A program made the position numbers and the translations under genes. Shown one piece after another: positions 11,510-63,428 of a stretch of 64,000 nt of DNA. A model generated the notes under the pieces. That model did no database searches and was not told the DNA's origin. It was given only the letters and a program-made list of their open reading frames with translations. How positions within the stretch are numbered: the stretch's first letter is position 1; every line of letters starts with the position of its first letter. Source of the DNA: Tetrahymena thermophila SB210 (lineage: Eukaryota; Ciliophora; Oligohymenophorea; Hymenostomatida; Tetrahymenidae); the NCBI RefSeq assembly GCF_000189635.1, contig NW_002475926.1, positions 310,001 through 374,000 of the forward strand, in the 5' to 3' direction.

Positions 11510-14500
11510 TCATTAAATGATACTTTAAATTATATTATTTGTTAAATTTTTAGGTTTTTTTATTAACTTTGTTTCATTCAATGGATTGATTTCTAAATTA
11601 GACTTAAACATAATCATATTTTGATGGTGTTAGCTAATACTACTAACTAAGTCTACACTTTCTTTATTATCATGTGGTTGTAAATTTCTTTCTGAAAAAT
11701 CTTAAGATAATTAAATTTCTTTTTTAAATTTACTATATTATTTAACTGGGTCTAATTATATATCAAATTATTACTCATTTCTTAAGGTTAGTTATGAAGA
11801 TTTATTTAAAAAAATTTATTTACTTTCTCTTCCACTATCTAATCTATTTGATTAAATATTTGAAAATGACTTTAGATCTAGGATTTAGTCAATCAATTTT
11901 TCATGCTCTTCTATCTTTAAATTTTCTGTAAAAAATAATTATATAAATAAATATAATTTAAAAAAAAAATTACTTAAATATGGTGTTGATTTTTTTATTA
12001 TCTTAGTAGAAATGGTTGCTAAATTTTTATTACAGCTTTCTAATCTTATTTTTATTAAGTTAGAATAAACTTTTCTCCATAAAATTAGAACTCTCTCGTT
12101 TTTTTTATTTTTATCAAAGCATAAAGTCTATATTTTTCCAAAGCTTAATTTGAAAATAATAAGCTTAATTATTTTAATAATTTTACTATTTTAATTTTAT
12201 AGCTTAAATCTAGCTATTAAAAAAATCATATAACCAATGTAAGAGTAATGGATTATCGCCAAAACTGCTTGATATATTGGTTAGGAGTGTTATCTATACA
12301 ATGAAAATAAGAAGATACAAGGTATAAGAGTTAAATATTAAATAAACTCTATCTTTTAAAGAGACTTACTTTTAAATGGCTATATTTTTATAATGGCTAT
12401 GATGTACCAAAAAAGAATTATTATGCATATTTAAGAAACTTACTCTTCATATTAATTTAAAATATTTGCAATCAATATTAAAACAACTTTTAAGTACATT
12501 CTCACAATCTCCCAATAATAGTATTAATTTTTATACTCTGAGTAGAATAATCCATATTTATACTTCATAATACATTAGTCGAGATTTTAATTATTAGTTC
12601 CTTTTTATTTCCTCAAATTATAAAATTAAACTGCAGGAATTAGTATCCAGAAAGCTAAGTTCGGAATAACATATCCAAAACTAAATTACCTGTAAGATTA
12701 ATCATCACATGATAAAAGTATATTTAGGACTTAGTATTTTTATGAACCAATTTATCTACAAGAGAGTGCTTTTGTGAAGAAAAATATACAGTCAGGCTAA
12801 AAAAATAGAAATAATACATTAAACATAGTATATTTATGGTGATCTCTTACATTTTAGAATTTGAAGTACTTTTAAATAGCAAGTAAAATATAAAAAAATA
12901 TGATTGTAACCAGAGGAAACAGTGATTATCCAATAATCATAATTTTCTCTTCCCCATATTTTTAAATTGTTTATGGTGTAAATAAGCATTAAGTATTAAT
13001 TATCAGCTTTGTAGATGGAGATCCTGCTAATGAAGGAGCAGCAGTAAAAAATGTAGGAATAAATTTCATGTAGAATGAAAATAATATTGATGATAATTAT
13101 AAATAATTAAGCAAAACTTTAATATAGTAAGATGATTCATCTTAGATACAGCTCTTAGAAAAAGGAAGTATCTTCATAAAACGTAAATAAGTACATCTTG
13201 ATTCATAGATGTATCTTCCCATGAACATAAACGTGCTGAAATATAAGTAGATATAAACAGCCGCTATCATAAATATCATTACGATATATTAGTATGCTTA
13301 ATTACTACACTTGTCACATTCATATTATTTAAACGACTAAACATACCTATCACCCCAAACTTCGCCAGTTGAGTCACATTTTTCACAAATTGGTCCAATA
13401 TAGCCAGTTATACAACCATTTATAGTATTGTTTTATACACTGCAAATATCTGGATTTACAAAGTTGCATCCTACAATTTAATCAGTTTAATTATTAGATC
13501 TCCAATACCCATCTTCTAAAATGAGTATATTACTATAGCAGTTAGAAACAAATGGCGGGCATTACTTGCAAATCTATTAATCTATAATTTACATATTTTT
13601 GTCTTGCAAATACGTTTAATAATCTTTGGCAGGATCACTTAAAGAATATTTCCCTTATGAGCATTCTACACAGCTTATCAAATAAACTTCTGAATCTTTT
13701 GAAATATTATTATTAACTTAAATGGTAGAAGAGACTAATATCTCTCCTTGATAGCACGACCTAAAGGATATATTTGTTTTTATTTACTATGAAAATCCGA
13801 AATTGTTAAAAGAAAATTGTATTATTACTGAGCTTATAGTTATTAGAGGTAGAGATTCAAGAGTTAAAGATTCGAAATTAAACATTTTAGAGTTAGCATC
13901 GTATTGTTGAATTCCAATCAACTACTCACCTTTTAATTCAATATTCATATTTTAATTATTGAGATTTTTTAAATTTTAATTAACAGCTACTTAAATAAAG
14001 TAAGAGTTTAATTCTAGCATTGTAGATTTTTCGTATAAATTACTTATATATTTAGTTTAATTAACACTTAAAGGTCTTGAATAGTGATCTAGCAATTAAA
14101 TTCTGAAACGAAGTAATCCAGCACTTTGTACGTTTTAGAAATTAATTGATGTATTATCATAGAGCATATCTAAATAGCCATTGTAAATTTTATTATAATT
14201 TTATCTTTTAACATCAAAAACTTCTACCAAAAATTGTAAAGGTAGAGTGCCTATATTATTTCCATGTAGTTCAGCATAATTATAAAGTAATTAACAACTT
14301 ATTTTATAAGTATACCATAAATTAACATCTTAGTTAATAATTCTGATAGCTCCTCCTATGCTAGCATTATTATATTTTAATTAGCTTTTTTCATCAATAT
14401 AAAACTAATTTACATTTTTTAAGTAAATGCTTCCACCACTCCCGCTAGCATAATTTGACATAAAAGTAGAGTTCTATATTTATATAATCTATGTAAGACT

Positions 14501-17500
14501 TTCAACATATATACATCCTCCATTTACTCCTTTATTATTTAAAAAGTTACTATTTTCTATGACTATTTAATCGTTTGTATAAAACTAAACATTGCCTTCA
14601 TTTTTTTCATATGTCATTTAATTAATTTTTACGATTGTATTTTTAATTAAAATTAAAATATTTTATGTGTTATTGTCATCTAAATTTAATGGAAATATGT
14701 TATTTTACAATTAAACTTGAGATAAATCTAAAGTGTCTATAGATAAAATGACATTTCCTAAATTTTATTATGAATATTGATTATCTGTTAATATGAATTA
14801 AATATTTTTATTATTTTTGGCTTAAAAAAATTAAATTTATTATTATATCACCCCAATTAATTTAAAAAGATAATTGTTTTGATCTAAAAATTTATTATTA
14901 CAGTTAGTTATTTAAACATTTTAAATTATAACACTTTTGCTTTGAAATATATCTATTAAAGAACCTAAAACTCCATTTGTAATTGATAAATTTCTTATTG
15001 TTATTTGATTTGTTCCTGATGAATAAATTAAACCATACTTTTCTATATTAATAGTTAAATTTTCAATTACCAGATTATTTATGATAACATTTTAGCAGTT
15101 TATGAAGTTTAAAAAATATTACTTAGAACTTATTTGCTAATATTAACTTTATAAATTTCTTTTTGAGATAAAGCTAATATTACTTATTGTTAAATTCTCA
15201 AGTATAATATTTTATTTTTGGTTAAATTATATCTAAACATCTTCTGATAAATTTTAGTTTATTAGAGATATATTTTGCAATAAAATATTCTATGATTAAT
15301 TATTAGTTGTAATAATTTATTAGCTGTTTAAAATCAAATTAAAGCCGTCCATTTATAAATCAAATTTTATTGTATTGAAAGATGAGGAGTCAATAATTAA
15401 ATTATTTTACTATTTAGATTAAGGTCTCAATATGATATTTTATGAATTTTAATTCAAAAAATTCATATTATTTATTTAATTTTTAATGTAGACAGAAACT
15501 TAATTTTTAATAGTAATAGTACTAGGATTTTAAAAAGTCAAAAAACTAGCAAGAGATGAAATATAATCATTGTATGATAATTAAATATAGCAACTATTAA
15601 CTTATTAATTTTGTTAAACTGAAAAGTTGCTTTCGTATATTCCATAATTTATATTCTTTTCAATGATAGTACTCTAAGCTACACCTACATAATTAACTAA
15701 TCTTTATTATGATACAATACTCAAATAAATTAATTTTGAATCAACTAGTTAAAAGGAATCTACTAAAACTATTGTGCTTGTTTAAACTTAAATAAAAAGA
15801 GATTCTATCCTATTTACAAAAACTGCAATTATTTTATTTTCATCTATTAATCTGATATCAGTAATTCTATCTTTTCTATTATATCTTCTAATGTATCCAA
15901 TGAAAGAAAAATTATTTAAGGTATAAACATTTATTTAATAAGAAGAACATAATAATAAATAAATTTCATTTTATACTATCTACTTCCATTCATTATCTGG
16001 GAATGACAGATATGTTACTAATGAGTAATCTATTAAATTAAGTACCAAAATATATCTTTCACTTTAAAAGTTTACAAAAACTCTCTAATTTATCATATCA
16101 AATTCAATTAATTAAATCTTTTTTTAGGTGTTACTACCTAATTGTTAAGTAATCATTATTATAGACTATTAAATAGGCTAATTATTCAATTAATTAAGTG
16201 ATGTACCATTAATCATGATAACATTTCCAACATTATCTAAGCAAATGAAATCATTTTAGTTATACATTTTTATTCTGAAAATTGGATTAGTATTTTTAGT
16301 TTATGTAAACTGAACTTCACTCAATTAGTGTGATATCATATCTTATACAAGAACTCTTCCTTAATCAGTTCCATAAATATATTACCATTTGTTTGATTAT
16401 AAAGAACTTATTTCTAAATTGCTTATGATATCTTCTTGTGGATTCAATTAAAATTTGAAGTTAAGTTGTTGAGCAAAAAAATCATAATCAATTATGAAGT
16501 TATCTGCTGTATTTATGATTATTCTATCTGCTTTTTAAAACAGAATTCTTTTGAATGAGTAATCAGATAATAATTAATCAGGGCTTTATTGAGAGAAATT
16601 ACTGCTTTAATCATTATAAATTAGAATCTATGAATTAAAAAAGAAAATAAATCTATTCAAATTTCCTTTTTATAGATATCTCATGTCTAGAATGTTAAGA
16701 GAGAAAAAGTTTTAGAATGTTACTTGATTATTCTAATACATATAAATGTTATTGCTTTAATCTGCAATAATGAAAGATAATTTTCCTAAGGTGTTAATTT
16801 AGAAGTAATGATTAGACGGTCTACTAATTACTCTTTGATATGGTCTTGTAAACATGTTGTAATTCTATCTCCATACTCTATTGTTATTATAAATAAAAGC
16901 GGAATTAGATTAAAAATCTAATATGTAATCTATTGGAGGAGGTAATATTCCTGATTATATTTCTTCTATTGAAAAAGTTTAGTCAGTTGTTTTTTATGCA
17001 TTATTAAGAACATTTTAAAAATTTCCAAAAGTATCGATATAATTAAACATTTAGCTGTCATCATCGTAGATAATTTTAACAACTGGACCTATTTTATTCG
17101 CCTGATAAGTATTTGACATAGAACCTGCTTGTTGATATGTTGTTAAACTATAAAGAAGAATCTACCCATATTAAATTGTGATTGTATAATAAGCTATCAA
17201 ATTTTAGCTTTTAATATACAAACAACCTGTAAAAGCTCCTCCTGATGGTTAAATTAAAGAAATATAAGTTAGGGATCCTCTTTAGTAGATGTAAATAGCT
17301 ATTAATTAAATATTAATTTAATAAAATTAAAAGTTTTTTCAAAATACTTAATTACCTGCTGATGACATTATAACAATATGATTATCATAAACAGAAAAAG
17401 TTATTATTGGATATTAAACATCTGAAAGAGCATTAAGATATGAACCTGAAAAGCTATATACCTCTATATAGGTTTTATAAACAAATATTTATTAATTCTA

Positions 17501-21934: not shown

Positions 21935-24900
21935 TCAATTATCTTCTATGGAAGTTTATTTGTTTATCTAGCTTAACTTACAATTAATATCTTTAAATTG
22001 ACAAACTTTAATTTCTTTTGTGCTATTTATCTGATTTATTTCTTTATTAGAATTTAAGACTACAAAGCATTTCGAAGTTGAATCGGATATTTCTGAGTGA
22101 TCTGCACATTCTTTGATTAAATCTTTATTTTTTAAAGAATATTCTGAAGCTTACATTTAACTTTCATTTTAATCTTTATCTTTCTAACTCATAAATCTAA
22201 TAAATTCCATTTGAATATCGAATTGACTCAAACTTTTTTATCTGATAGGCATTTTGGAGTATTGGCTAGTAAAGTTAAGTCTATATTCTTTCATTGATTC
22301 GTTTCTTTTTCTATTATGTTATGGTGAATTTCTACTATATTATGTTATGTCTTAAATTTGATCATTTATTTTAGTCATATTTTCTATTTTTAAATTTCCT
22401 ATATAATAATAAAATAAAATTATTGTTATTTTTAAATAATTTAAAAATTTTACTCGATTATGGGCTAAAAGATTTACAAAGATTTGTTTTTAATTTATTA
22501 AAATTGTCATTTATATGGTCTATTCTAATTTATATCAAATTAACATAAGCTTTTCGCCACAAAAGTAAAACTCTAGAGTTTTTTTTTCGATACCAAAATT
22601 AAGATTAAATTTTTCTACAGCAAATTTTTGAGATTGTATACCTCATTAACTTATTTAGAATATTATTTTGGTCATCTATTTTGAATTTAAAAATCTTTAT
22701 AATCATAAAGCCTACGTAAATTAATTTGATAAAAGCCAGTAAAATTTAAAATATTTCTTATGAATAAGACCTAAATAACTATTATAAGAAAATGCAAGGT
22801 ATAAGCAGTAAATAAGAAATTAGCTCTTATTTGCAAAGAGATTAACTTTTAAAAGGTTGCTTATTTATAACAAGTAAGACATAAGCAAAGATTACCATAA
22901 TGCATATAATTGAAACTTAGTCTTCAAATTAGTTCAAAAGACTCGTTATCATAACTATTATTATTTTTAAGTACATTCTGACTATTTCCCAATAGTAAAA
23001 ATTTGTCTTATATTCGCTATAAAAATATCCATATTTGTACTTCAGTAAACAATTATCAAAATTTTAGTTTTTAGTACCTTTTTTTTATCTTAACCTTAAG
23101 ATTTATACTGTGGGAAATAATATCCAAAATATCAAATTTGGTATAACATAAATATAACTAAACTAAATATAGGATTAATCTTTACATTCAATAAGTATAT
23201 TTATCATTTGAAAGCTCTATTTCCCAATTTTTCTGCATGATAAAGCCTTAGTAAAAAATTAAACACAATCTGATTAAAAAAATAAAAATACCACATTAAA
23301 CATAGTATATTTATGATATGAACTCACACCTTTTAATTTAAGCTTCCTTAAAATTGTTAAAACTATATAAAAGAAGATTAAAATTGAAATAGGAAAAAGG
23401 GATTATAAGAAGATCATTATTTTTTCCTCTCCATACTTTTTAAAAGTTTCTGAATTAATTAAACACTGCGTACTAATTACTAATTTACTTGAAGGAGTAC
23501 CAGCTAATTATGGCATTACATTTAAGAAAGAAGGTAAGAATTTGATATAAAAAGTAAATAGCAATGAGGAAAGTTACAAGTAGTTGATTAATAACTTAAT
23601 GTAATAAGATGATTCATCTTAAACACAGCTTCTTGAAAAAGGTAAAAACTTCATAATGCGTAAATAGTTGCAACGTGATTCATAAATATATCTTTCCATG
23701 AAGAAAAATATGCTATAATATAAATAAATTATAATGAGAAATACCGATATTATAATTCCTATCTACTATACTATGTAGTCACTGCACTAATCGCATTCAT
23801 ATTGCTAAAAGGGTTAAGCATATCTTTATTTCCATACGGCACCAGTTGTATCACATTTTTCGCACAATGGTCCGATATATCCTTTAATACATCCATTAAT
23901 AGTAGTATTTTATACACTACAAATATTCGGGTTTACATAATTACATTTCAAAATCTCGTCTGTTTAGTTATTAAATCTCCAATATCCATCCTACAATATT
24001 AAAGTATTACCTTAACAAAAAGTGACTTCAGGAGGGCACTATTTACATACTTCAGTGCTCAATTCTTCGAAATTATTTTAAATTTAATACTATTTATAAT
24101 CTTTATCTGAATTAGTTAAAGAATAAGTCCCTGATGTGCATTCAGTACAACTAATTAGGCTTAATTGATTTTAGTTATTTTCTTAAGTAGAAGTTTAAAT
24201 AAATGACTAAACTAAAATCTCACCAACTTAACAAGATCTAAAAGAAATATTGGTTTAAATTTATTTAGAATATCCTATACTATCAAAAGAAAATTAAATA
24301 ACAACTGAACTTATATTAACATGAGGAAGAGATGTTAAAGTCAAAGATTCAAAATTAAACATTTTAGAATCTTCATCATATTGCTTAATTCCAATAAGAG
24401 CCTCACCTTTTAGTTCTATAAAACTGTTTTATTTATTTTAAGAAACAGCATTTTAATTTATTGCAACTTAGATAAAATATGAATTTAACTCTTATAAAAT
24501 AGATTATTCATAAATATTATTTTTAAACTTTGTTTAATTCACAGAAAAAGGCCTTTTATTCTAGTCTTATAGTTATACTCTGAATGGAAATAACCCTCCA
24601 CTTTATATATTTTAAAAATGTATTATCGTGCCCTGTGATATATTATCATCTAATTAGCCCTCAAATATTTGTTCATATTTATTTTATTTCAAATTGCTTA
24701 CTTAAACTAAAAACATCATAGGAAAAGTTCCGATATTATCTCCATATATTTCACCTGAGTTGTATAACATTAGGCAATTAATATCATATTATTTCCAAAG
24801 ATTAACATCTTTATTTATAATTCTAATTGCTCCTCCTATGCTAGCAGAACTGTACTTAATTAAGCTATTAGAATCTATGCTGAAGTAATTTACGTTATTC

Positions 24901-27900
24901 AAATAGATACTCCCTCCACTTCCACTAACTTAATTTCTTTGAAAATTAGTATCCTTTATTATAATGCTCTAATTTACTTATAAGATACTCAAGCACCCTC
25001 CAAGAACTCCAATATTATTTTGAAAGACACTCTTATTTATTAGAACAATTTAGCTTGAAATAAATTAGATGTTGCCTGTATTATTCTTAAACTAAATATT
25101 TGTAAAGTTTACTGTAGAACTTTGTATTAGTAATAATATATTTTAGATATTAAATTAGTCAGAATTTGAAGGAAATGTATTATTTACAGCATATGCACCA
25201 TCAAAAACTAATGTGTCTTTTGAATAAACTATCGTAGTGTTATCTTATTATAGATACTATTTATTTGTAAGGAGCAGTTAAATATTTCTATTATTGTAAG
25301 CTTAAAAATTAATAATTTATTATGAAAGAACCCCAATCAATTAGAATGCATATTATTTGGTATTTATTTCATCATTTTAACAATTTACAATTAAAATATT
25401 TTGAAAAATAATATTTTAACTTTAGAATATATCTATTAAGGAGCTAAAATTACTATTTTATATAGTCAAATTTTTTATGATGAAAGAAGAAGTTTAATAT
25501 GAGTAAATTAAGGCTGAGTTCTCATCTGCTAAAGATAAATTTTCTATGATAAAATTGCTTATTATCACTTTTTAGCATTTTGTAAAGTTAAATAGATAGG
25601 ATTTATTAGTTTAAAACATCTAAAGTTGTTTATTTAATGTTATATTTTTCATAAAAATTTCATTAAAATTAACTTATTTTTTTTGATAAAATTATATTTA
25701 TGAGGTTTCAGTTATATTTTAATTAAAATAAGTTATATTTTATAAGTTAATATTTTAAGAGTTTGAGTTCATCTAGATTGGTCCTTACTAATACTCAAAA
25801 ATTAAATTGAAGCTGTCCATTTATATATCAAAGTTAAGACTATCAAATGAGCTTTTCTGTATTTAAATGTTATTTTAAGTTTTACTTTAAGGTCTAAACA
25901 CTACACTAACGGAACTTTAATTCAAAAAATCCATATTATCAATGCTATTATTTATGTAAACTGATAATAAATACATCAAAGAAAGAGAGCTAGAACTGTA
26001 TACTTATTAAAATCTTGTTGAAGCCTTAATATAATTTTAATATTGTAATTAAAAGTAACAACTTTTAGTTTATTAAGTTTAAGCTATTGGATATTGATTC
26101 TCATATAAACCATAATCAATTCTTTTTTCATAAACCGCATTTTTTGCAACTCCAATATAATTAAGTACCATTTAAGCTGAATTAAATGAAATATAAATTA
26201 ATTACGGATCAATCATAGGTAAAGAATCGACTAATGTTACTGAATTAAATGAAATTAATAAAGATTCTATTCTGTTAACGAAAACAACTATGATTTTGTT
26301 ATTTTCTATCAATTTAATATCAGTAATTCTATCCTTTCTATTATATCTTCTAATGTTTCCTATAAAAGATAAGTTAGAAAATTAATGAATATTTAACTAA
26401 TAAGTAGAAGACAATATTAAATATTAATCATTAAACACCATCGTTTTCCATTCATTGTCAGGAAAAGATATGTAATTTATCAGGGAATAATCTACTAAGC
26501 TAAAAATTGAAACAAAACTCTGTCTTTTAAAGTTTACAAAATATCTTTAAAATTTCATATCAAACTGAATTATTTATATTGGTTTAGACATTTTACTACC
26601 GAATATTTATTAAATATTTTAATTAATTGATTATTAGATAGGCTAATTACTATATTCTGTTAAGGTTTAACTATTTATCATATAAATATTTCCAAAATTA
26701 TCTAAACAAATAAAGTCATTTTAAGAATATATTTATATTGATTATATTGCTTAATTGATTGGTTATTAAAAATTGACAAAAGTTTATGTAAAAGCAATTA
26801 AATCATAAACTCCTACTCTACCTTAGTCTGTTCCATAAACAAATAGCCACTAATTAGAAAGAGAAGATCCTATTTCAAGAAAAGTTATAATGTCTTCGAA
26901 AGTGTTCAATTAAAACTTATTATTTAGTTAATAGCTAAAGAAGTCATAATCTATAATAAAATTATCAGCTGTATTGATTATTATTCTACTTGTAGATTAT
27001 AATATAACTCTCTTAAATTTATAATCAGACAAAACAAAATCAGGTGTTTATTAAGTGAAATTACTATTTTAATTATTATAGAGAAGTATTTATTAATTAA
27101 AAAAGAAGATGAATCTTATTTAAGCTTCTCTTTATACTATCCTCATATCTAAAATATTATCAGTAAATTAATTTAAGAAGGTTAATAAATAGTTTTGATA
27201 CATGTAAATGTTATTATAATAATCGGAGATTACAAACTATTAAAATTCTTGATTTTTTATTTAAAAGTAGTGATTAGCTGGAATACTTATTATCCTTTAG
27301 TAAGGTCTTGTAAATAAATTATAATTATGTCTCCAAACTCTTTATCCATTATACACAAAAGCAACATTTGATTTGAAATCAAGCTAGTAATCTATGGGAG
27401 AATCTAGAATACCTTATTATATTTCTTCAATCACAAATGTCTAATCTGTTGTCTTTTATGCATTATTTAAAACATTTTAATAATTTCCATATTAATCTAT
27501 ATAATTAAACATTTGGCTATCATCATCGTACATTATTTTAACAACTTTTCCAATCTTATTTTAAAAGTAAGTGTTTGTTAAAAAACCTGCTTATTGATAA
27601 ATAGCTAAGCTATAAAGCAAAACTTAGCCATATTAATTCAAACTTAGATAATAAGCAATTAACTATTAGCTTTTTATGTATAGATAACCTATGAAGTTTC
27701 CACCTGAAGGAGAAATGAATGTCATATAAGTTAATGTACCTCTTAGATAGATGTATATTTCTATTTTTTAAAATTAGGTTGTTATTTACTTATTTAAAAA
27801 AATTAAAAAATAAAAATACGAGCTGAAGAATAAACAATTATGTGTTAATCATAAATTGAGAATGAAATGATTGGATATTACACATCAGAAATCCCTTTTA

Positions 27901-47263: not shown

Positions 47264-49039
47264 TCATTTTCTGCCTCCTTTACCAGAGAATGATTTTCTA
47301 CCTCCTTATGGCTTTCCACCTTTTCCTCCAAAAGATTTTCCTCCTTTGCCACCAAAAGATTTACCACCTTTTCCACCAAAAGACTTACCACCTTTGCCAC
47401 CAAAGGATTTACCACCTCTATCACCAAAGGATTTACCTCCTCTATCACCAAAGGATTTGCCACCTCTATCACCAAAGGATTTGCCACCAAAGGATTTAAC
47501 ACCTCTATCGCCAAAGGATTTGCCACCTCTATCGCCAAAGGATTTGCCACCTCTATCACCGAAGGATTTGCCACCTCTATCGCCAAAGGATTTGCCACCT
47601 TTATCACCAAAGGATTTACCACCTCTGCCTCCAAAAGAGTCTCTTCCACCTTTATCACCAAAAGATTTACCTCCTTTTCCTCCAAAAGATTTACCTCCTT
47701 TTCCACCAAAGGATTTATTGCCAAAGGATTTACCTCCTTTACCACCATAAGATTTTTCTCCTCTTCCTCTCATGTCTGTTCCAAACTTGGAAGATCCTGA
47801 GCCTTAAGGTTTATATTTATCATCCTTTGTAATTTTTTTGACTATTGGAAGTGGCTTTTTACTAAAATTTTTATTTCCCTTTTAGCCAGGTTTAAGCATA
47901 AATTCAGAAAGATCTTTTGCCTTTTCACCTTTTACTTTAATTTCTTCTTTCCATTTTTCTATAGCTTAGAGGTTATCTCTTTTTTCTTTTGACTTTAATT
48001 GCTCCTTCTTAGCTTTTAATATACGCTATAATTTACGAGATTCTTAACGTTACTTCTTTTCTTCGAAGGACTTGATATGTTCTTATTCCATAACAAGTTT
48101 TGTTCTTATTTTGTTCATAACCTTGTCACTCTTAAACATTTCAGCGAAGTAATCATCAGGTCTTTTAGTTGCTACACCTTCTTATTAAAGATATTTTAAT
48201 GCTATTTAGGCATTTCCAAGAGTAACATTATAAAATTAAACTTCACGTTAGATATCTTCAGTAACATCTATATCTTTAACGATTTCTATTGATTTATCAC
48301 TAACTAGAGATAAGTGCTCATTCCAAGGAATTTTTTTTCCTGAGGGAACTCTAAGTCTCTTTCTAAAAGACTCTTAAATCTAATTAACTCTTTCTAAAAT
48401 CTTTTCTTTTTCATAAATAACCTTTTAATCTTATTCATCATCGTGTGTCTTGAAGGCATCCTTGTTACCTCCTTCTACACCCTCAGCACCAGCAAAGAAA
48501 TGATCTTCAACATCATCTCCCTCATTTTCTTCTTCTTCAATATCTTCAAATTACTCTTCTTCCTCTTCAAAATCTTCTTCTTCCTCTTACTTTTATTATT
48601 ATTTTTTAGCGTTTTCCTATTCTTTCTTCAATGCTTTAGCTGCTTCATTAGCAAGTTTTTAAATATTTAAATGAGATTTATTTTTATCGTCTTTTTAGAT
48701 TTTTTTAGTTTTATTTTAAGCAACTTATTTATCAGCCTATTTTTTTTAGTTCTTAGAACCATTTTGTTACTTATTTTAAGGTTGTTAAACTTGCTTTTAC
48801 TTTTTATCTTCTACTTGCTTTGTTTCCACTTTTTCTACGGAAGGGATTTATTTGCTCTACTCCTTCTTTCCATTCTTGTTCTACTAAGGATTCAAATTGG
48901 TTTTCTATTAATTTTATTCCTTAGGTTGTTGAGTTTCCTTTTACTTGTTAGCTGTGGCTTACTAAGGAGTAACTTAACCCTTTTTATTTTCATTAGCTTG
49001 AGGCTTCTTCTATTCTTTTTTGTTAATATTCTTTCCCAT
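47264..49039 (-). CDS. EBP2: rRNA-processing protein EBP2 with KSFG-repeat tail
   Basis: EBP2 is a nucleolar factor needed for 27S pre-rRNA processing and 60S subunit assembly (family knowledge). This intron-free gene encodes 591 residues, starting MGKNINKKEQKKPQ. The N-terminal third is Lys/Gln-rich, followed by an acidic stretch (EEEEDFEEEEEQFEDIEEEE). The conserved EBP2 core shows RKRLRVPSGKKIPWNEHLSL, REVQFYNVTLGNAQIALKYL, KRPDDYFAEMFKSD and LQAIEKWKEEIKVKGEKAKD. After the usual basic segment (SKKPLPIVKKITKDDKYK) comes a tail of about 150 residues built from GGKSFGD-type repeats, ending KSFSGKGGRK. The core is ordinary EBP2; the tail resembles Gly/Arg-rich nucleolar domains and is not a usual part of the family. 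A divergent small gene starts 138 bp away. Confidence 0.93.
47300..47760 (-). repeat. 24-bp minisatellite encoding GGKSFG repeats
   Basis: An imperfect 24-bp tandem array encodes about seventeen KSFG units with spacers GGKG, GDKG and GDRG. Short variants (NKSFG, VKSFGGKSFG) and one RDSFG unit break the register at the protein level but not the frame. All other reading frames are also open here (for example PPKDLPPL repeats), which is a by-product of the repeat. Confidence 0.92.
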
Positions 49040-49177
49040 TTTTGATAGTTTATAATTAATTCTATGAATTGTTAATTTTTTTGTTATTAATTATTATTTA
49101 AATATATTGACTTTATTTATCCTACTTTTAATTAGTTTTAGCTTTTTATTTAATATTAAATAGCATTTTAATCAAAA

Positions 49178-54946: not shown

Positions 54947-57194
54947 TCAAATGTCTAAAATATCATAAGGGGTATTCATGAAGCATTTGCTTACTAAATT
55001 GCTATATTATTGATAATGATTAATTGTCACTTCAAATAGTGTAATGAGTCTGTTTAGCTGATATACTAATGCAAATTATATTACTTTTTAACTATTCAAT
55101 TTTTATTCGGGCATTAATTCTTAAATTGATTTCATTTCGCTTTCAATTTAATTTATTATTAAACTACCTATGTTATAGAATTGAGTGTTTTATTGTTGTT
55201 AGTTGTCACCTTTATTCTCTTATTGTATGATTAAATCTTTATTAAATAAAGATGTTAAAGCAGTCTTTGCTAAACTATTTGATTTGATAGATGCTGATAT
55301 AATTCTGATCGTGGGTTCCCTAATTAAAATTATTATAAAAATAATTAATATTTCTCTTTAAATTAAAAAAGCCAATTACTAAACCAAGGTGCTAAGGGGC
55401 ATGATAATCATAACTTATGCATTAAATTAATCTCCTTTTGTTATGTTAAAAATATGAATCTCAGTTTCATTTGATTCGTTGTCTAAATTTAACTTTTGTA
55501 AAACTTCTTTTTATGAAACAACATATTAGTCAAAATTGTTTTTTTTATCATCTTAAGATTCAACGTTCTTAAGTTTTTAGCTAACTTAATCGACAAGTTT
55601 TTTGCTATTATTTTCTTCTTCTATGAGATCAAATTGCTATTCTGGCTTTCTCTTGAGCCAGCTGGGTTTTAATTGTTTAAATTAAGAACTGTTTGCTAGA
55701 TCATTTGTATTTTGCAACTTTTGCTTGTGTTCAAATTTATACTTTTGTAATTCGTTTTCATTTATTTTCTCCTTTTATGACTTAAACAAAGGATAAATTT
55801 AAAATGAACCTGATGTTAGAGCATCGATAATACTTTTTACAACTTTTTTACTGACAAATCTCTCATTAATCTTAGTTAACACATTTTAAGCATCAACTTA
55901 CACAGTGCTATTACCCCTATTACTAAATAAGCAAATAAGCTAATATAAACAAATAAAATAAATCTTACTTTATTCCTCCTAGTATTTAAAGCCAATTGTA
56001 AAATTCGTATTACTAATTTAAATTTTTATCATACTCATCCTAAGTATATAAAATTAAAGGAGAACCAAAATCATTTTAAAATAAACCTGAAAAGATTTCT
56101 TTGCCTTTCATGTGCTTTGAGTCTAGCTGAATAACTAAAGTATTCAAGTTTTCAATAAATCTTATATTTTAAAAAAATTATTTTCTTTACTAAGATAATT
56201 AATTAATTAATTAAATTTACCTAATGTAAAATTTTATTGGGTATGCTTCTGCAACTGTTTGTTTTTGTAGAGTTATTTTGTAATTTGATAAAAAGTTGTC
56301 TATAAAATTTACTGTGGTAGGTAAATATTCTTTGATAGTGACTGCCAATTCTAAATGATGCAACTCATTCTATCTTTTGTTGTTGCTTTAATTTTAGATT
56401 TGTTAAATAATTTCGACAGAAGACTAATATGAAGGACTGCAATCAAAAAGAAGAGAGAGTTTAGAGTAAACGCTATAAAGAGGAGGAGGAAGCTAGGAAG
56501 CAAGACTGTGCTAGATTGGATTAAAGGCAAGAGGTTAATTAGTTATAGGACTAAAAACTGTTTTCAATGATTTTAAATTTTCAGACAAATTTGTCAAAAT
56601 AGGAGATAACAGTTAAGTATATTGATTAATTACTGAATCATATTATTCTCTTTAACTTACTAATTATTTGCTAATATCAATATGTTCTTCATTTTTCTTA
56701 ATTCTTTTTTGTAACTCACTTTCAAGCTCGTTTTTGAGATCAATAAAATCATCAGCAACAAAATCTTAAACAGGCTTTCTTTTTAACTATCCCAATATTG
56801 ACTTGTTATTAACTTACTACAGGTTTTCCATTTAAATAGATTGACATCTTTAAATAGAGTTCACTATGGTACTCTATAGATATTCTAAGCCTGATAAAAA
56901 TACGCTTGTTTTTTCAATTTTTTCTTTTTCAGTTCTAATTTTATTTCTTTCCTCTTCTATGCTTATTTAAATGCGACGATGCTTTTATCTCATTGAACGT
57001 ATCTTCAGAAGTTAAGTAATACAATTTTTATCACCTATTTGCTAAGCTAAAATGTTTGAGTTACCTTCCTTTTTTGAAGTTACAATCTTACTAAGAGTTT
57101 CTCTTATGTCATTAATCTGCTATCTTAATTCCTATGTATATTTAAGCGCTTCATTAGTTGTTTCAGATATTTGCAAATTCTAGGGCTATTCCAT
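54947..57194 (-). CDS. THOC5: THO complex subunit 5 (THOC5/FMIP)
   Basis: THOC5 is part of the THO/TREX complex coupling transcription to mRNA export (family knowledge). Four exons (56221-57194, 55969-56160, 55380-55922, 54947-55319) join in frame to 693 residues, close to the 683 of human THOC5. The N-terminal half is coiled-coil: SGLEYLQSTIVNSIQRCQSI, then FIDLKNELESELQKRIKKNE. Next comes the hallmark QLPPPLYSVYSKLSLLFD. The C-terminal half shows family-like order: IQLDSKHMKGKEIFSGLF, DFGSPLILY, YEFYNWLQILGGI and PSWLKRKPEQQ. The start MEQPQNLQ is the first ATG of the open frame. The gene is divergent to the cyclase gene, across about 1.5 kb. Confidence 0.82.
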
Positions 57195-58663
57195 TTGAAT
57201 AAATCAGTTTTTTTTCTATTTTTTTATATTCGTTTGTCTGAAACTGTTGTAATTTTCTAAAATTATTTTATTTTATTTATTTTCCTATTACAAATTTTTA
57301 AACAAGAAAACAAAATATTCTGCAATTAATAATAAAAATATTTATTCCAAAAAAAATTTGTTATTTGAGTGCTTATAGGTTCTTAATAAAAATCATAAAA
57401 TATATGATTAATAAAGAAAAAGTTTTTAGTTCTGATTAAAAGATTTTTTTGATATTATATCTATCTTTTCTAGACATCATTCAATTTATTTAATTTAAAA
57501 TTTATTATAAAACATTTATCAAAAATATAATTTTTTTTAAAATTTATTTTACCCATTTTAATTTTGAATTATTATTAAAATGATAATTGTATTTTGCTTC
57601 TTATTCTTATTATCAAAAAAAAAAAACTAAAATAGATTTCATCATCAATTCCAATTAAATCATTTACCTATCCTTATTTTCTTATTTATTCTAACAATTT
57701 TAAAAAAATTAAATAATTTATTTATAAATGATAAGCGGACAAAAATATTATCAAATTTTATTAATTTAAAAATCAAATTTCATTTATTTCATGTAAAAGA
57801 AAACTTATATTTTTTCATTTTGTGGTTTGATAACTTTATTTTAAAGGCAAATATTGTTATTATAAGAATAAATTCTCTGTTTGATTTTTTGCCAAAATAG
57901 AAAAAATAAAATAATAAAAGTTAAAAAATATAGTAGAAAATTTATTAAAAATTTTTTTTTGTTTTATTTAAATATCTGAAGTGATCTATTATTAAAGTGT
58001 TTTTTATATAATAAAATATGTACAACCTAAACATAAATAATAATTAAAACCTTAAAAAGAAAGGTAAATAAATAAGTTTAAGTGACTGTTTTATATTTCA
58101 ATAAATTGCTTTTATAAATGTTAAAAACTAATTTAAATTTTATTTAATCATGATGATGATTTTTGAGCGTATTTTAAAAATTAATAAAATGTAAAAACTC
58201 ATAAATAACACTGGCTGATTTATATTTATTTTTAGGACAACTATAATTGATTTAATTGAATATGGTACTTTTATATTTCAAGCAAACGATTTAATTCAAT
58301 AAAACTTGATTATTCTCCTAATCAACTATCGCAGCAATAGAAAACTGCTTCTATTTATTTAATTATTTTTGTATATTCGAAAGACTAGCTTGGCTGTAAT
58401 GATTTGATTGATGTTAAATCATGTCATCCTTTTAAGTTTATTCATAATTACTAACAATTTGGGAAAATAAACTAAAGTAAATATCAATTAATGTAAAATT
58501 TAGTCTTATTTTTATAGTATTTTTTAGAGCAAAAATAAGAAGAAAAGAAACAAATAATCTATAATCAAATAATAAGTGCAAAGATTGTAATTATATAGTA
58601 GTAGTTTAAAAAAAATAGAATCAACCATATATTGACAAGGCAAAAGAGACCTGGTCTTCGATA
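57195..58663. other. divergent promoter region between THOC5 and cyclase
   Basis: About 1.5 kb of AT-rich DNA between divergent genes. A slightly GC-richer patch lies at about 58,230-58,450. Open frames there are no longer than expected by chance when TGA is the only stop, so no gene is called. An undetected 5' untranslated exon of the cyclase could lie here. Confidence 0.5.
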
Positions 58664-61600
58664 ATGAGTCAAGATATTGCTAATATATAATCCCCTAACG
58701 ATAATTTATCGAATCACTCTAAAGATGTAATTCAAACTACATTACTTTATTTCTACTTTACACATTACTCTGTTTTTATATCTTCCTTAGCATTAGATAA
58801 AAAAAAAATTAACTTATTGAGCTATCCACTCCTATAAATATTTTAATACTTTTTTGTAAAAAATAGCAAGAAAAAGAACCAAACAATTTACTTCCGCAAG
58901 GTAAAATATTTAACTTTGACACAAAATATATTTTTTAAAGATAATTTTACTGATAGAAGAGCGCTCAATTAAAGTAGAAGATAATATTAATCTCTAAGAG
59001 AATAAGAGATTTACAAAAAAAATAAACTAATTTTCATTTGATTATTAGAATAAGAAATATAAATGCTTTTACATACTAATTATTTTAAAGTGCCTTAAAA
59101 TAATATTGAATATATTAATTTTAATTTATAGCTCAAGATGAAGTTTCTGTTTCCTCCAAAGGAAAAAAAAATACATTACATAGAAAGCTTTCAAACAGAA
59201 ATGATGTAGGAGATAGAAAAGGATACAGAAAGGTTTAGGTAAATAATTAGCAAATTCATAAAAAAAAATAATTTCTTTTACATGCAAATATTTATTTGAA
59301 CTTTTGTTATATTTTTAACATTTTTATAACATTTTATAATCATAAAAAAATAATGTTTAGAAATAACTTTGTTAGCTATGACTTTACTTAAGTTATTTTT
59401 TATTGATTTTAATTATTTGATTAGTGATTGTTAAAAACTATACAAAATTTTTTAGATTTTAACTATTAATTGTTTTTTAAATCAGTTTTATTTAGAAAAA
59501 CTCGTTGATAGTTCTGCCACTCAAATCACAATGACTATTGTAACAATTTATGCACTATTTGGTGATGATATAAGAGTATTATCTACCGACAAACAAGGTG
59601 ATGAAGCTTTTTGGATTATGAATTGCATCTGCCTTGCTTTATTTACAGTAGAAATAATAATAAATTGCATAGCTAAGGTATGTTTAAACATTTATAAATT
59701 TTAAGTTTAAGCTTTTTATAAATCTAAATATTTTTCCACCTTGCAAAAATCATTCAGTAATAATTGAATTATATTGATAACTCTTTTTTCTATAAAGCTT
59801 AATACAAAATATTCACTTCTTACCTACTTTTTATTTTACCTTAAAATAAATTAATTATCTTTCTGTTTTTAACAAAATTATAATAAAAATTATTTTAATA
59901 GAAAGGATATTTTAACAGTTTCTTCTTTTATTTGGATATCATATCTACTGTTTCTCTAATTTTAGATATTGGATGGATTTCTGATGCTATGTTTAATTAA
60001 GGTGGTGGTTCATAAAATGCTGCCTAAGTTGCAAAGTAAATAATCAATTAAAAAAATATGTTTCATCGATTCATTCTAAATTAAAATTTAACAGGGCTGG
60101 TAGAGCTTCTCGTGTTGGAACAAGAGCAGGTAGAGTCGTCCGTATAGTAAGACTTATTCGTCTTGTTAAGTTATACAAACTTGCTTAACAAAGAATCTAA
60201 TTAGAAGCTGCAAAACTCAAAGCGCTTGAATATGAATAAAAGTAATTAGAAGAATAGTAAAACTAAGATAATAACCCTCCTTAGCAATAGGAATTAGGTA
60301 AAATATTAATATATTTTTTTTTTAAAAATTAAATGTTTATATAAATTGTTGATAATTTGTTTTGAAAACTCATGATAGGAAATAATACAGTTTTGTAAAA
60401 GAGAATAAATAATGTAATTATGAAAGAAAGAGTGGCAAAAACTTTATAGATGAAAAAGTAGACATCTAATGCATCAGTTAAATAATTTTAAGAAACAGAT
60501 GCTGTTAAAGAAATTATACCCCCTGCAGTTGATCAAAGTCCAAATCTATAACCTAAAGAAAATGAAGAATAAAGACTTTTAGAAGAATAAAAAGCTTTAA
60601 AAAGTAAACTCCCTCCTTTAAATAATTAAACAAGCAGTTTAGAAGCATCACCTAATAGTAATTTCAAATCTACAATATAAAAAAATTGTAATTTTAATCC
60701 TTATTTTATTATATTCATTTAGATGTTCCTAGTAAACCTGTTGTATTAGAAAAGTATAAAGATGACCCCCTTTTGCAAGTGACAAATGTCAACACTGATT
60801 AAAATGAATAAGGAGAAAAGAAAGATGTAAAGAAAATGGCTAAAGATATTATCTAAATTAATCAGAAAAAGCACACAAAAAAATATTCCAAAGCATCCAC
60901 AATTCAAAGATAAGCTGAAAAAGAAAAGAAATAAGAATCAAATGATGTTGGCAGTGAGAGTAAGGTTGGCTAAAAGCTCACAGATTTAACAACCCAAAGA
61001 GTTATAGTCATTGTACTTTGCATCATGATTAGTATTCCAATTTTTGATTATTCTACTTACTATGAATCTTAAACCTCCTATGATGCAGGTCTACTTTTTA
61101 TTTATTAGTAAATTATTTATTATTTTTCCAAAAAAAATTTTGTTTAACTTATCTACTTTGTAAATAAAAAGCAATTATAAGGCAAATCAAATTAATCTCT
61201 CATACGATTCGATGAAATTGTATTTAGATTTTTCAAATGTAATTATTTATTTAGTTTTTTTATTGCTCCCTTATTTTTCAGTTTCTATTTAGCATTTTTA
61301 TTACTATTTTGTCTTAAATTATTTCTTTAATATAAGCTGGTATTTATTTTTATCCAACCAAAAAAAATAATAATAAATCATTTTATTACTTTTAATAATT
61401 TCATTATTAGCCAGCCAGCATTACCACCAACATTTGATTATTAATTATCAATTTTTTTTGTAACAATTAAAAATTGAATGCCTTATTTAATAAAGAGCTA
61501 AAGAAATCCAATATTGTATATGTCAAACAAATATGGTGTCAGCTAATATCCATGGGGTGCTTAATATCCTAACTCTGTATTTAACGATGTAAGAGCTGAT

Positions 61601-63428
61601 TAATCTACATATAGAGAAGATGATAAATATTATTACACTATGACTGTTGATGTAAAATAATACTTCATAATTATTGAAAATCTTATTGATTTAATTTTTT
61701 TGTTGACAAAATTAATTTCAAATAATCATCAATTAATTTATTAAAAAAGGGTGAATTGATTTCTTATAGTATTGTCGATATTAAAGGAGATAATCAAATT
61801 AATGCTATATTATCTATTATTAGAACGATCTTTGTATCTATTGTACTTACTATTGCTTTTCTATCTTTTTCATCTGATGTCGAACATTTAGTTTTAGAAC
61901 CTATAGCTAGTATGATGAAAAAAGTTAGAAGAATTGCTGATAACCCTTTAGAAGCTGCTCAAATTGAAGAAAGAGAAGCTCTTGCTCTTGAATAGCTATA
62001 AAAAGAAGGTAATTTAAAGTAACTGCAAAAATTAAAAGATTAAGAAGGATATGAGACTGTCGTTCTTGAAAAACTAATCATGAAAATAGGAGCTCTTTTG
62101 GCTTTAGGTTTTGGAGAAGCAGGATCTGAAATTATTGCTTCAAATATGAGTAAGGGTGGTTCAGTAGATCCTATGATACCAGGTAAAAAAATTATGGCTA
62201 TTTTTGGCTTTTGTGATATCCGTAATTTTACAGATGCTACGGAAGTTCTATAAACAGGTGTCATGCTTTTTGTGAATGAAATTGCTGAAATTACTCACTC
62301 TACAGTAGATTCTTTTTGTGGTCAATCAAATAAAAATATTGGTGATGCATTCTTGCTAGTATGGAAGTATGGAGAAGATGATTATTTTTATAATAGTGAA
62401 AATCAGCTTGAATTAAAGGATACCTAAAAAGTTCATAATCTTGCTGATCTCCCAGTTTTAGCATTCCTTAAGATTATGGCAGCTATCACTATTTCTAAAA
62501 AACTTTTCAAGTATCGTTAGCATAAGGGTTTAAATGAAAGACTCAAAAATTACAGAGTAAAAATGGGTTTCGGACTGCATGTTGGTTGGGCTATTGAAGG
62601 AGCTATTGGATCTGGATTTAAAATTGATGCTTCATATTTGAGTCCAAATGTCAATATGGCATCACGTCTAGAAGCAGCTACCAAATAATTTGGTACTGGA
62701 CTTTTAATAAGGTATTTATTTATTTATTTATACTTTTTTTATCTTTTGTTTTATCATAATTTAATTAATTTAAAATAAATTAAATTTAAAGTGGGCCTTT
62801 ATATAAAATTCTAACTCCATAATGCTAAAACCACTTAAGACACATTGATAGAGTAACAGTCAAGGGTTCTCTTGTTCCTTTAGGTAAAATAATACTATTA
62901 ATGAATAAATTTATCAATTATAATTTAAAAAGATATGTACACCGTTGATGTTCATTTGGATAATATTGTCTATAAGAAAGTTGGTAAAGATAGATTTGAT
63001 AATGCCCATCTAAGTTTAGCCATTAAGAAAAAGAAAAGAGTCATTGATAGAATGAAAAGAAATAAGCTAAAAGAGTCTATTATTAATGGAACAGAAAATC
63101 CTTATGAGTTCTTTAACACAGATAAAGAACTTGTTGCCATGAGAGAATTCTTTACACCTGTATTTCTTTCAATTTTACATAAAATATTTAAAATATTTTA
63201 TTTTTATATTAAAAATAGGAATTTTACTCATAATGGTAAGTTGGTTTTAAGTATTACCTTGATGGTAAATGGCCTCAAGCTAAAGAAATATTCTAAAAAA
63301 CACTAGTTATGCTTAATAGCAATGGTATAATTGATGGTCCTTCAAATACTCTAATAGAAGTTATTGAGGAACATGGTAATAAAGCACCTTCTGACTGGAA
63401 TGGATTCCGTGTCTTAACAGAGAAGTGA
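58664..63428 (+). CDS. class III nucleotide cyclase with N-terminal S1-S4 voltage-sensor-like domain
   Basis: A multi-exon gene with at least ten short introns. S1-S3-like helices are at about 59,520-59,990 (TMTIVTIYALFGDD, CICLALFTVEIIINCIA, YLDIISTVSLILDIGWI). The S4 helix at 60,090-60,190 has Arg or Lys at nearly every third position (RAGRVVRIVRLIRLVKLYK). A Gln-rich cytoplasmic linker follows, then one helix (VIVIVLCIMISIPIF), an ectodomain of uncertain exon structure (61,080-61,650), and a second helix (AILSIIRTIFVSIVLTIAFL). The cyclase domain (about 62,190-62,720) has metal-binding Asp in GFCDIRNFTD and NIGDAFLLVW, a base-selecting Lys (SNKNIGD), and transition-state Asn and Arg in VNMASRLE. 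The C-terminal block YYLDGKWPQAKEIFQKTL ends at TGA 63426-63428. No S5-pore-S6 is visible. The start (58664) and first exons are uncertain. Lys favours ATP as substrate, but LSPNVN replaces the usual GDTVN, so adenylate versus guanylate is open. Confidence 0.85.

Follow-up and report, generated by a model that had tools for sequence, protein, structure and literature searches.

A predicted voltage-sensor adenylyl cyclase of Tetrahymena thermophila with no recognisable pore

We analysed a 64,000-nucleotide stretch of the Tetrahymena thermophila SB210 genome (contig NW_002475926.1, positions 310,001 to 374,000; hereafter the window), in which a predicted gene on the forward strand joins a voltage sensor and a class III cyclase in one predicted protein with no recognisable pore. 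Judged from the sequence, the favoured explanation is a voltage-sensor adenylyl cyclase (AC) of the alveolate/stramenopile family of cyclases with a voltage-sensor domain (VSD), one of six paralogues, whose cyclic AMP (cAMP) output would follow voltage. We give this reading a probability of about 0.62.

Voltage sensor and cyclase in one predicted protein

Open reading frames (ORFs) in the window run long when TAA and TAG are read as Gln, as in ciliate code 6. Under this code, the limits given for the gene in an initial annotation of the window, 58664-63428, proved exact.

58664-63428, + strand: VSD-cyclase gene, 14 predicted exons, 1036 aa, ATG at 58664, TGA at 63426-63428
58664-58726, 58867-58900, 59132-59238, 59486-59677, 59902-60035, + strand: exons 1-5
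60095-60297, 60379-60657, 60723-61107, 61172-61238, 61496-61651, + strand: exons 6-10
61750-62711, 62792-62883, 62933-63159, 63219-63428, + strand: exons 11-14

The exon model came from a small gene finder, for which the window served as training sequence, and was then corrected by hand against paralogues. The unaided gene finder began further upstream, and the ATG at 58664 was preferred by eye. All 13 introns are of the GT-AG type, reading GTA..AG, with lengths of 49-257 nt and 7-21% GC. Such introns and the reassigned stop codons are Tetrahymena-like traits and fit a ciliate macronuclear genome. The least certain intron of the model is 60658-60722; it lies in the low-complexity linker and touches no domain. 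The formerly unresolved stretch of 60,700-61,750 was modelled as the exons 60723-61107, 61172-61238, and 61496-61651, and its three introns have the same phase and corresponding places in two paralogues on contig C167. Considering that the model was chosen with these paralogues in view, this agreement indicates consistency and is not independent proof. TM6 (TM, transmembrane helix), the coupling segment, and the cyclase core all lie within a single 962-nt exon.

Searches of the organism's own genome (a 101-Mb assembly of 445 contigs) with the cyclase part and with the VSD part agreed on five further loci (two each on C167 and C221, one on C234); paralogue counts given here are lower bounds. 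The layout and the charged S4 were common to all six paralogues, the window gene included; S1 of the C234 paralogue was located by hand. NCBIfam gave no match on five of the six paralogue proteins. A pattern scan of genome contigs revealed one further relative, L069 (JAIYDP010000293.1), among 263 pattern matches. Its contig is filed under a Verrucomicrobiaceae pond metagenome-assembled genome, of which we judge it a probable eukaryotic contaminant because its reading needs introns. In the standard code, L069 contains S1-S4, TM5, an ectodomain, TM6, and a cyclase, with 54% identity in the best segment. With introns placed by hand, the break in its S4 falls in the same codon, and in the same phase, as that of both C221 paralogues, and one exon carries the latter half of S4 together with the pre-TM5 segment. 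Separate genes for voltage sensor and cyclase are thus disfavoured by the same order in six paralogues, the shared exons, and L069, and the earlier proposal of one protein with both modules is supported at the level of predicted genes.

59516..59581, + strand: S1, ending in DDIR (DDIR in five of six paralogues, EDIR in one)
59600..59674, + strand: S2, with F-T-V-E (F-x-x-E in five of six paralogues, F-x-x-Q in one)
59911..59979, + strand: S3, with a conserved Asp (YLDIIS; Asp in all six)
60096..60179, + strand: S4, nine basic residues, mostly at three-residue spacing
60180..60272, + strand: S4 extension, charged, possibly helical and possibly a coiled coil (by eye, not computed)

The S4 sequence, AGRASRVGTRAGRVVRIVRLIRLVKLYK, carries its nine basic residues in three-residue steps except for one four-residue step, as the initial annotation had described for a sensor of four helices. 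One of 40 Markov-resampled windows equalled the 7-of-7 periodicity score of the real window, and S4 periodicity alone is not decisive. The Ion_trans profile scored 40 bits on the N-terminal 469 aa of the window protein (cut-off 25) and 38.2 bits on the whole 1036-aa protein, with the match confined to S1-S4 (profile positions 6-110 of 241). Ion_trans also matched all six excised VSDs (E <= 1), and the S4 charge pattern was kept in all six paralogues. Together with the score above the cut-off, these results indicate a voltage sensor beyond chance. A profile of the six VSDs gave weak matches to solved structures, the best being Shaker (E 0.028). The set of S2 Phe/Glu and S3 Asp resembles the charge-transfer centre of Kv channels, and S1-S4 has the look of a canonical voltage sensor. 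The six paralogues share two acidic residues at the S1 end, and S4 continues into a charged extension, as in Hv1; both features would also suit a sensor that itself conducts protons or cations, with the cyclase regulated by that flux. We consider this very improbable; the S1 end of L069 is Ser-Asp, not two acids.

62200..62949, + strand: class III cyclase domain, with introns 62712-62791 and 62884-62932 inside
62215 (D696), 62332 (K735), 62344 (D739), 62632 (S835), + strand: cyclase residues

Guanylate_cyc matched the excised window domain at 40.6 bits (cut-off 21.9), 61762-62710 at 30 bits, and all six excised cyclase domains (E <= 1). It was not reported for the full-length window protein (Pfam, E up to 10). 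Among five full-length proteins, without that of C234, Ion_trans was found in three and Guanylate_cyc in two at E up to 10. The profile searches proposed earlier therefore gave both families above their cut-offs, Ion_trans on the S1-S4 part and Guanylate_cyc on the excised domain. The window protein carries both metal Asp residues, a Lys/Ser pair, Asn, Arg, and Lys, in agreement with the complete cyclase domain predicted earlier; in class III cyclases these positions are the metal Asp pair, the base-recognition pair, the transition-state Asn and Arg, and a further Lys. Adenylyl-type base recognition is made by a Lys plus Asp/Thr/Ser pair. The Lys/Ser pair was present in all seven family proteins compared, and the Ser of the window protein aligns with the Thr of a photoactivated AC. 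A profile search returned solved relatives in 13 distinct chains, all named adenylyl cyclases or CyaB, with photoactivated ACs first. This makes ATP the predicted substrate, with cAMP as the product to which the residues point. Of the earlier alternative, cAMP or cGMP, the first would stand and the second, with a guanylyl cyclase, is disfavoured by the Lys/Ser pair. Since the complete catalytic set sits on one chain, a homodimer is the predicted active form.

Substitutions at catalytic positions were found in two of the six paralogues. The Asn is Ser in one, and the first metal Asp is Ser in another, the C234 paralogue (L065; FCSIKNF), which may be inactive or a partner subunit. Two further cyclase loci, on C36 and C171 (L067 and L068), were read by the gene finder as proteins that have a pair of cyclase domains and lack a voltage sensor, and these proteins are soluble-type (sAC-like) by eye. 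They were the only loci examined further from the own-genome cyclase list, which omits the window gene and its five paralogues.

The pore question and competing readings

61001..61057, + strand: TM5, preceded by ESKVGQKLTDLTTQR
61058..61794, + strand: ectodomain, interrupted by three introns, of low conservation (mean pairwise identity 0.19)
61807..61865, + strand: TM6, by hydropathy
61894..61974, + strand: HAMP-like coupling segment, beginning LEPIASMMKKVRRIADNPLEA; likeness by eye, without a Pfam hit
62056..62199, + strand: pre-cyclase coupling segment, holding GFGEAG (GFG at 62107-62115)

Behind the charged S4 extension, a Q/N/K-rich linker leads to a conserved pre-TM5 segment. Between S4 and TM5 of the window protein, hydropathy (19-residue mean, threshold 1.1) marked no segment. 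Two further helices had been noted before the cyclase, and these correspond to TM5 and TM6, with an ectodomain of ~100 aa between them. Apart from the TM helices, two places were marked by hydropathy, one around GFG (1.69) and one within the cyclase domain (1.81). Mean pairwise identity among the six paralogues was 0.69 in the coupling segment, 0.58 in the cyclase, 0.52 in the pre-TM5 segment with TM5, 0.49 in the VSD, 0.45 in the TM6/HAMP-like part, 0.19 in the ectodomain, and 0.11 in the linker.

No S5-P-S6 pore with a TxGYG-type filter was found in the window protein, in which the Ion_trans match ends at profile position 110 of 241. The filter motif T-x-[GA]-[YF]-[GE] was absent from the unspliced six-frame code-6 translations of L001-L066, and no separate pore family was among the Pfam hits of the five full-length proteins (E up to 10). 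A pore hidden in the formerly unresolved exons was considered, and no S5-P-S6 appeared once 60,700-61,750 was modelled. Were there a selectivity filter in the ectodomain, one would not expect identity there to have fallen to 0.19. The absence of filter motif and pore family and the poorly conserved TM5-TM6 loop thus bear out the earlier observation that no S5-P-S6 pore is visible.

The only GXG candidate in the window protein is GFGEAG. It begins 32 residues before the cyclase motif FGFC in all six paralogues, while its distance from the post-TM6 Pro motif varies (70, 70, 70, 53, 51, and 68 residues in the six, 47 in L069). No Thr precedes GFG, and L069 reads AFGEAG where the ciliate paralogues have GFG, although the loss of GXG rests on this one relative. 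A 67-aa query with the GFGEAG segment returned only the six loci from the own genome. The spacing, constant relative to the cyclase but not to TM6, and the AFG of L069 suggest that GFGEAG is better read as a coupling motif in the cytosol than as a filter; its position is about that of the cyclase transducer element.

This bears on the described AC/K+ channel fusions of ciliates and apicomplexans, which are reported to have six TMs and a GXG after the sixth, with an architecture that departs radically from that of canonical K+ channels, and for which a definitive categorisation as K+ channel homologues is called not possible at present (PMC3283738). As described there, the fusions of Paramecium, Tetrahymena, and Plasmodium (ACalpha) have an N-terminal S4-bearing channel-like domain, six TMs, a post-TM6 GXG, and a C-terminal adenylyl cyclase. 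The window protein has the same layout and is therefore very probably a member. It is probably not different in kind, judged by the defining features of the fusions as given in a paper that cites Weber 2004. The GXG of the published fusions would then be the GFG found here. The initial annotation had proposed a voltage-gated cyclase rather than a channel-cyclase. The first part is kept as the likeliest reading, no pore having been found, whereas the distinction from the described channel-cyclases falls, given the same six-TM layout with GXG after TM6. If GXG is a cytosolic coupling motif, as argued above, the label "channel" itself becomes doubtful.

Several points weigh against a pore-less enzyme. 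All six ciliate proteins have GFG, which in the window protein sits in a hydrophobic stretch and may belong to a re-entrant loop. The TM5-TM6 loop of two paralogues also contains a hydrophobic stretch (L063 1.11, L064 1.75). The distance from the S4 motif to the pre-TM5 segment is 116-297 aa in the six ciliate proteins, which is long for tight coupling; the same distance in L069 is 31 residues. An AlphaFold model of the product of exon 61750-62709 with two L069 fragments reached a pLDDT of 38.3 and a pTM of 0.30 and was not used. A purified Paramecium cyclase gave a K+ conductance (Schultz 1992, as cited in PMC4588038 and PMC3283738), described as "relatively non-selective" (PMC3283738). This conductance, the published label, and the invariant GFG would be explained by a true channel-enzyme, with a non-canonical K+ pathway built from the six TMs and the GFG behind TM6, and with a cyclase whose activity follows the conductance of K+. 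We regard such an enzyme as unlikely in view of the spacing of GFG, the AFG of L069, the missing Thr, and the lack of any pore family or filter motif in the searches above.

Physiological reports from Paramecium add to these points. Glutamate raises cAMP, while other stimuli that hyperpolarise the cell about as much leave it unraised (PMC8964087), which disfavours a simple voltage read-out, and according to a review, beat frequency at constant voltage is not set by cAMP, such control being regarded as disproven (PMC8208649). The glutamate response would fit a ligand-receptor cyclase with the ectodomain between TM5 and TM6 as its receptor part and a voltage sensor that is only modulatory or structural. 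The divergence of the ectodomain among paralogues is in line with this, and the order of TM5, ectodomain, TM6, coupling segment, and cyclase resembles that of one-sensor receptor cyclases. We think this improbable, since the S4 charges and S3 Asp in all six paralogues and the S2 Phe/Glu in five suggest selection on voltage sensing.

Known relatives and neighbouring genes

The Phytophthora VSD-cyclases reported in 2025 lack pore-helix homology, and one of them was seen mostly at a single flagellum (PMC12223298). Like PPTG_13136, the window protein combines an Ion_trans match over S1-S4 with Guanylate_cyc and has no pore helix. The cyclase of PPTG_13136 and PPTG_13761 (Phytophthora parasitica) starts at residue 518 or 533, compared with ~691 here. 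The same report already offers both a channel with an enzymatic domain and a current-regulated enzyme (PMC12223298). All sixteen adenylyl cyclase genes of P. tetraurelia appear to encode a cyclase linked to a K+ channel domain (PMC4588038). Ci-VSP likewise has a VSD that drives a cytosolic enzyme without a pore; in contrast to the window protein, its enzyme is different and it has no TM5, ectodomain, or TM6 (PMC10651576). For the catalytic part, the nearest solved domains are those of the photoactivated ACs, with a similar Lys plus Ser/Thr pair. Those enzymes are soluble and have a light sensor.

No relatives were found in viral contigs with a few peptide patterns, in phages by tblastn with exon 61750-62709, or in plasmids by megablast. 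An Ion_trans scan of the own genome gave 146 matches, with 150 of 306 candidates scored. Because the six known loci were not among the matches listed, it is uninformative on other channel-cyclases. The places of P4-ATPase N-domains and of cyclases in the own genome did not coincide.

Other genes were recognised in the window. Two long ORFs of the same orientation are 57% identical over 1788 aligned positions; each has a Cys-rich stretch and a hydrophobic part, and neither matches Pfam at E <= 0.001. At 47316-47717, 24-base units form a tandem array that overlaps the EBP2 gene.

11513-17338, - strand: long ORF, first of the pair
22365-27848, - strand: long ORF, second of the pair
47267-49171, - strand: EBP2 rRNA-processing protein (PF05890, E 8.8e-35)
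55896-57203, - strand: THOC5-like protein (PF09766, E 1.1e-13)

Proposed mechanism and meaning

In the favoured explanation, a voltage-sensor adenylyl cyclase, S4 would move with the membrane potential, and this movement would pass via the S4 extension and the pre-TM5 segment to TM5 and TM6. The signal would then run via the HAMP-like and GFGEAG segments and rearrange the cyclase homodimer, so that cAMP output follows voltage. The ectodomain may supply a second, ligand input. By analogy with Paramecium, hyperpolarisation would give more cAMP. In Paramecium, cAMP rises when low K+ hyperpolarises the cell, cyclases of this type are found in cilia (PMC4588038, PMC8964087), and cAMP is up within 30 ms on glutamate with hyperpolarisation (PMC8964087). 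The role in ciliary control proposed in the initial annotation would be possible.

As a member of a known family, the window protein is not a new kind. What is new here is that six paralogues and an outgroup are used to argue for voltage-gated enzymes as the possibly better reading of the family. We lean slightly towards the view that the whole AC/K+ channel fusion family is without a pore, that its GXG is a cyclase-linked coupling motif, and that its members would be voltage-gated enzymes, the cyclase counterparts of the voltage-sensing phosphatases. In the literature searched, largely without subscription journals and thus as a weak negative, there was no reassignment of GXG and no voltage-gated activity of a recombinant member. 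The link between hyperpolarisation and cAMP in Paramecium has so far been attributed to a channel-enzyme. If these proteins are voltage-gated cyclases with no pore, a single molecule would convert membrane potential into cAMP, and a voltage-controlled cAMP tool might become possible.

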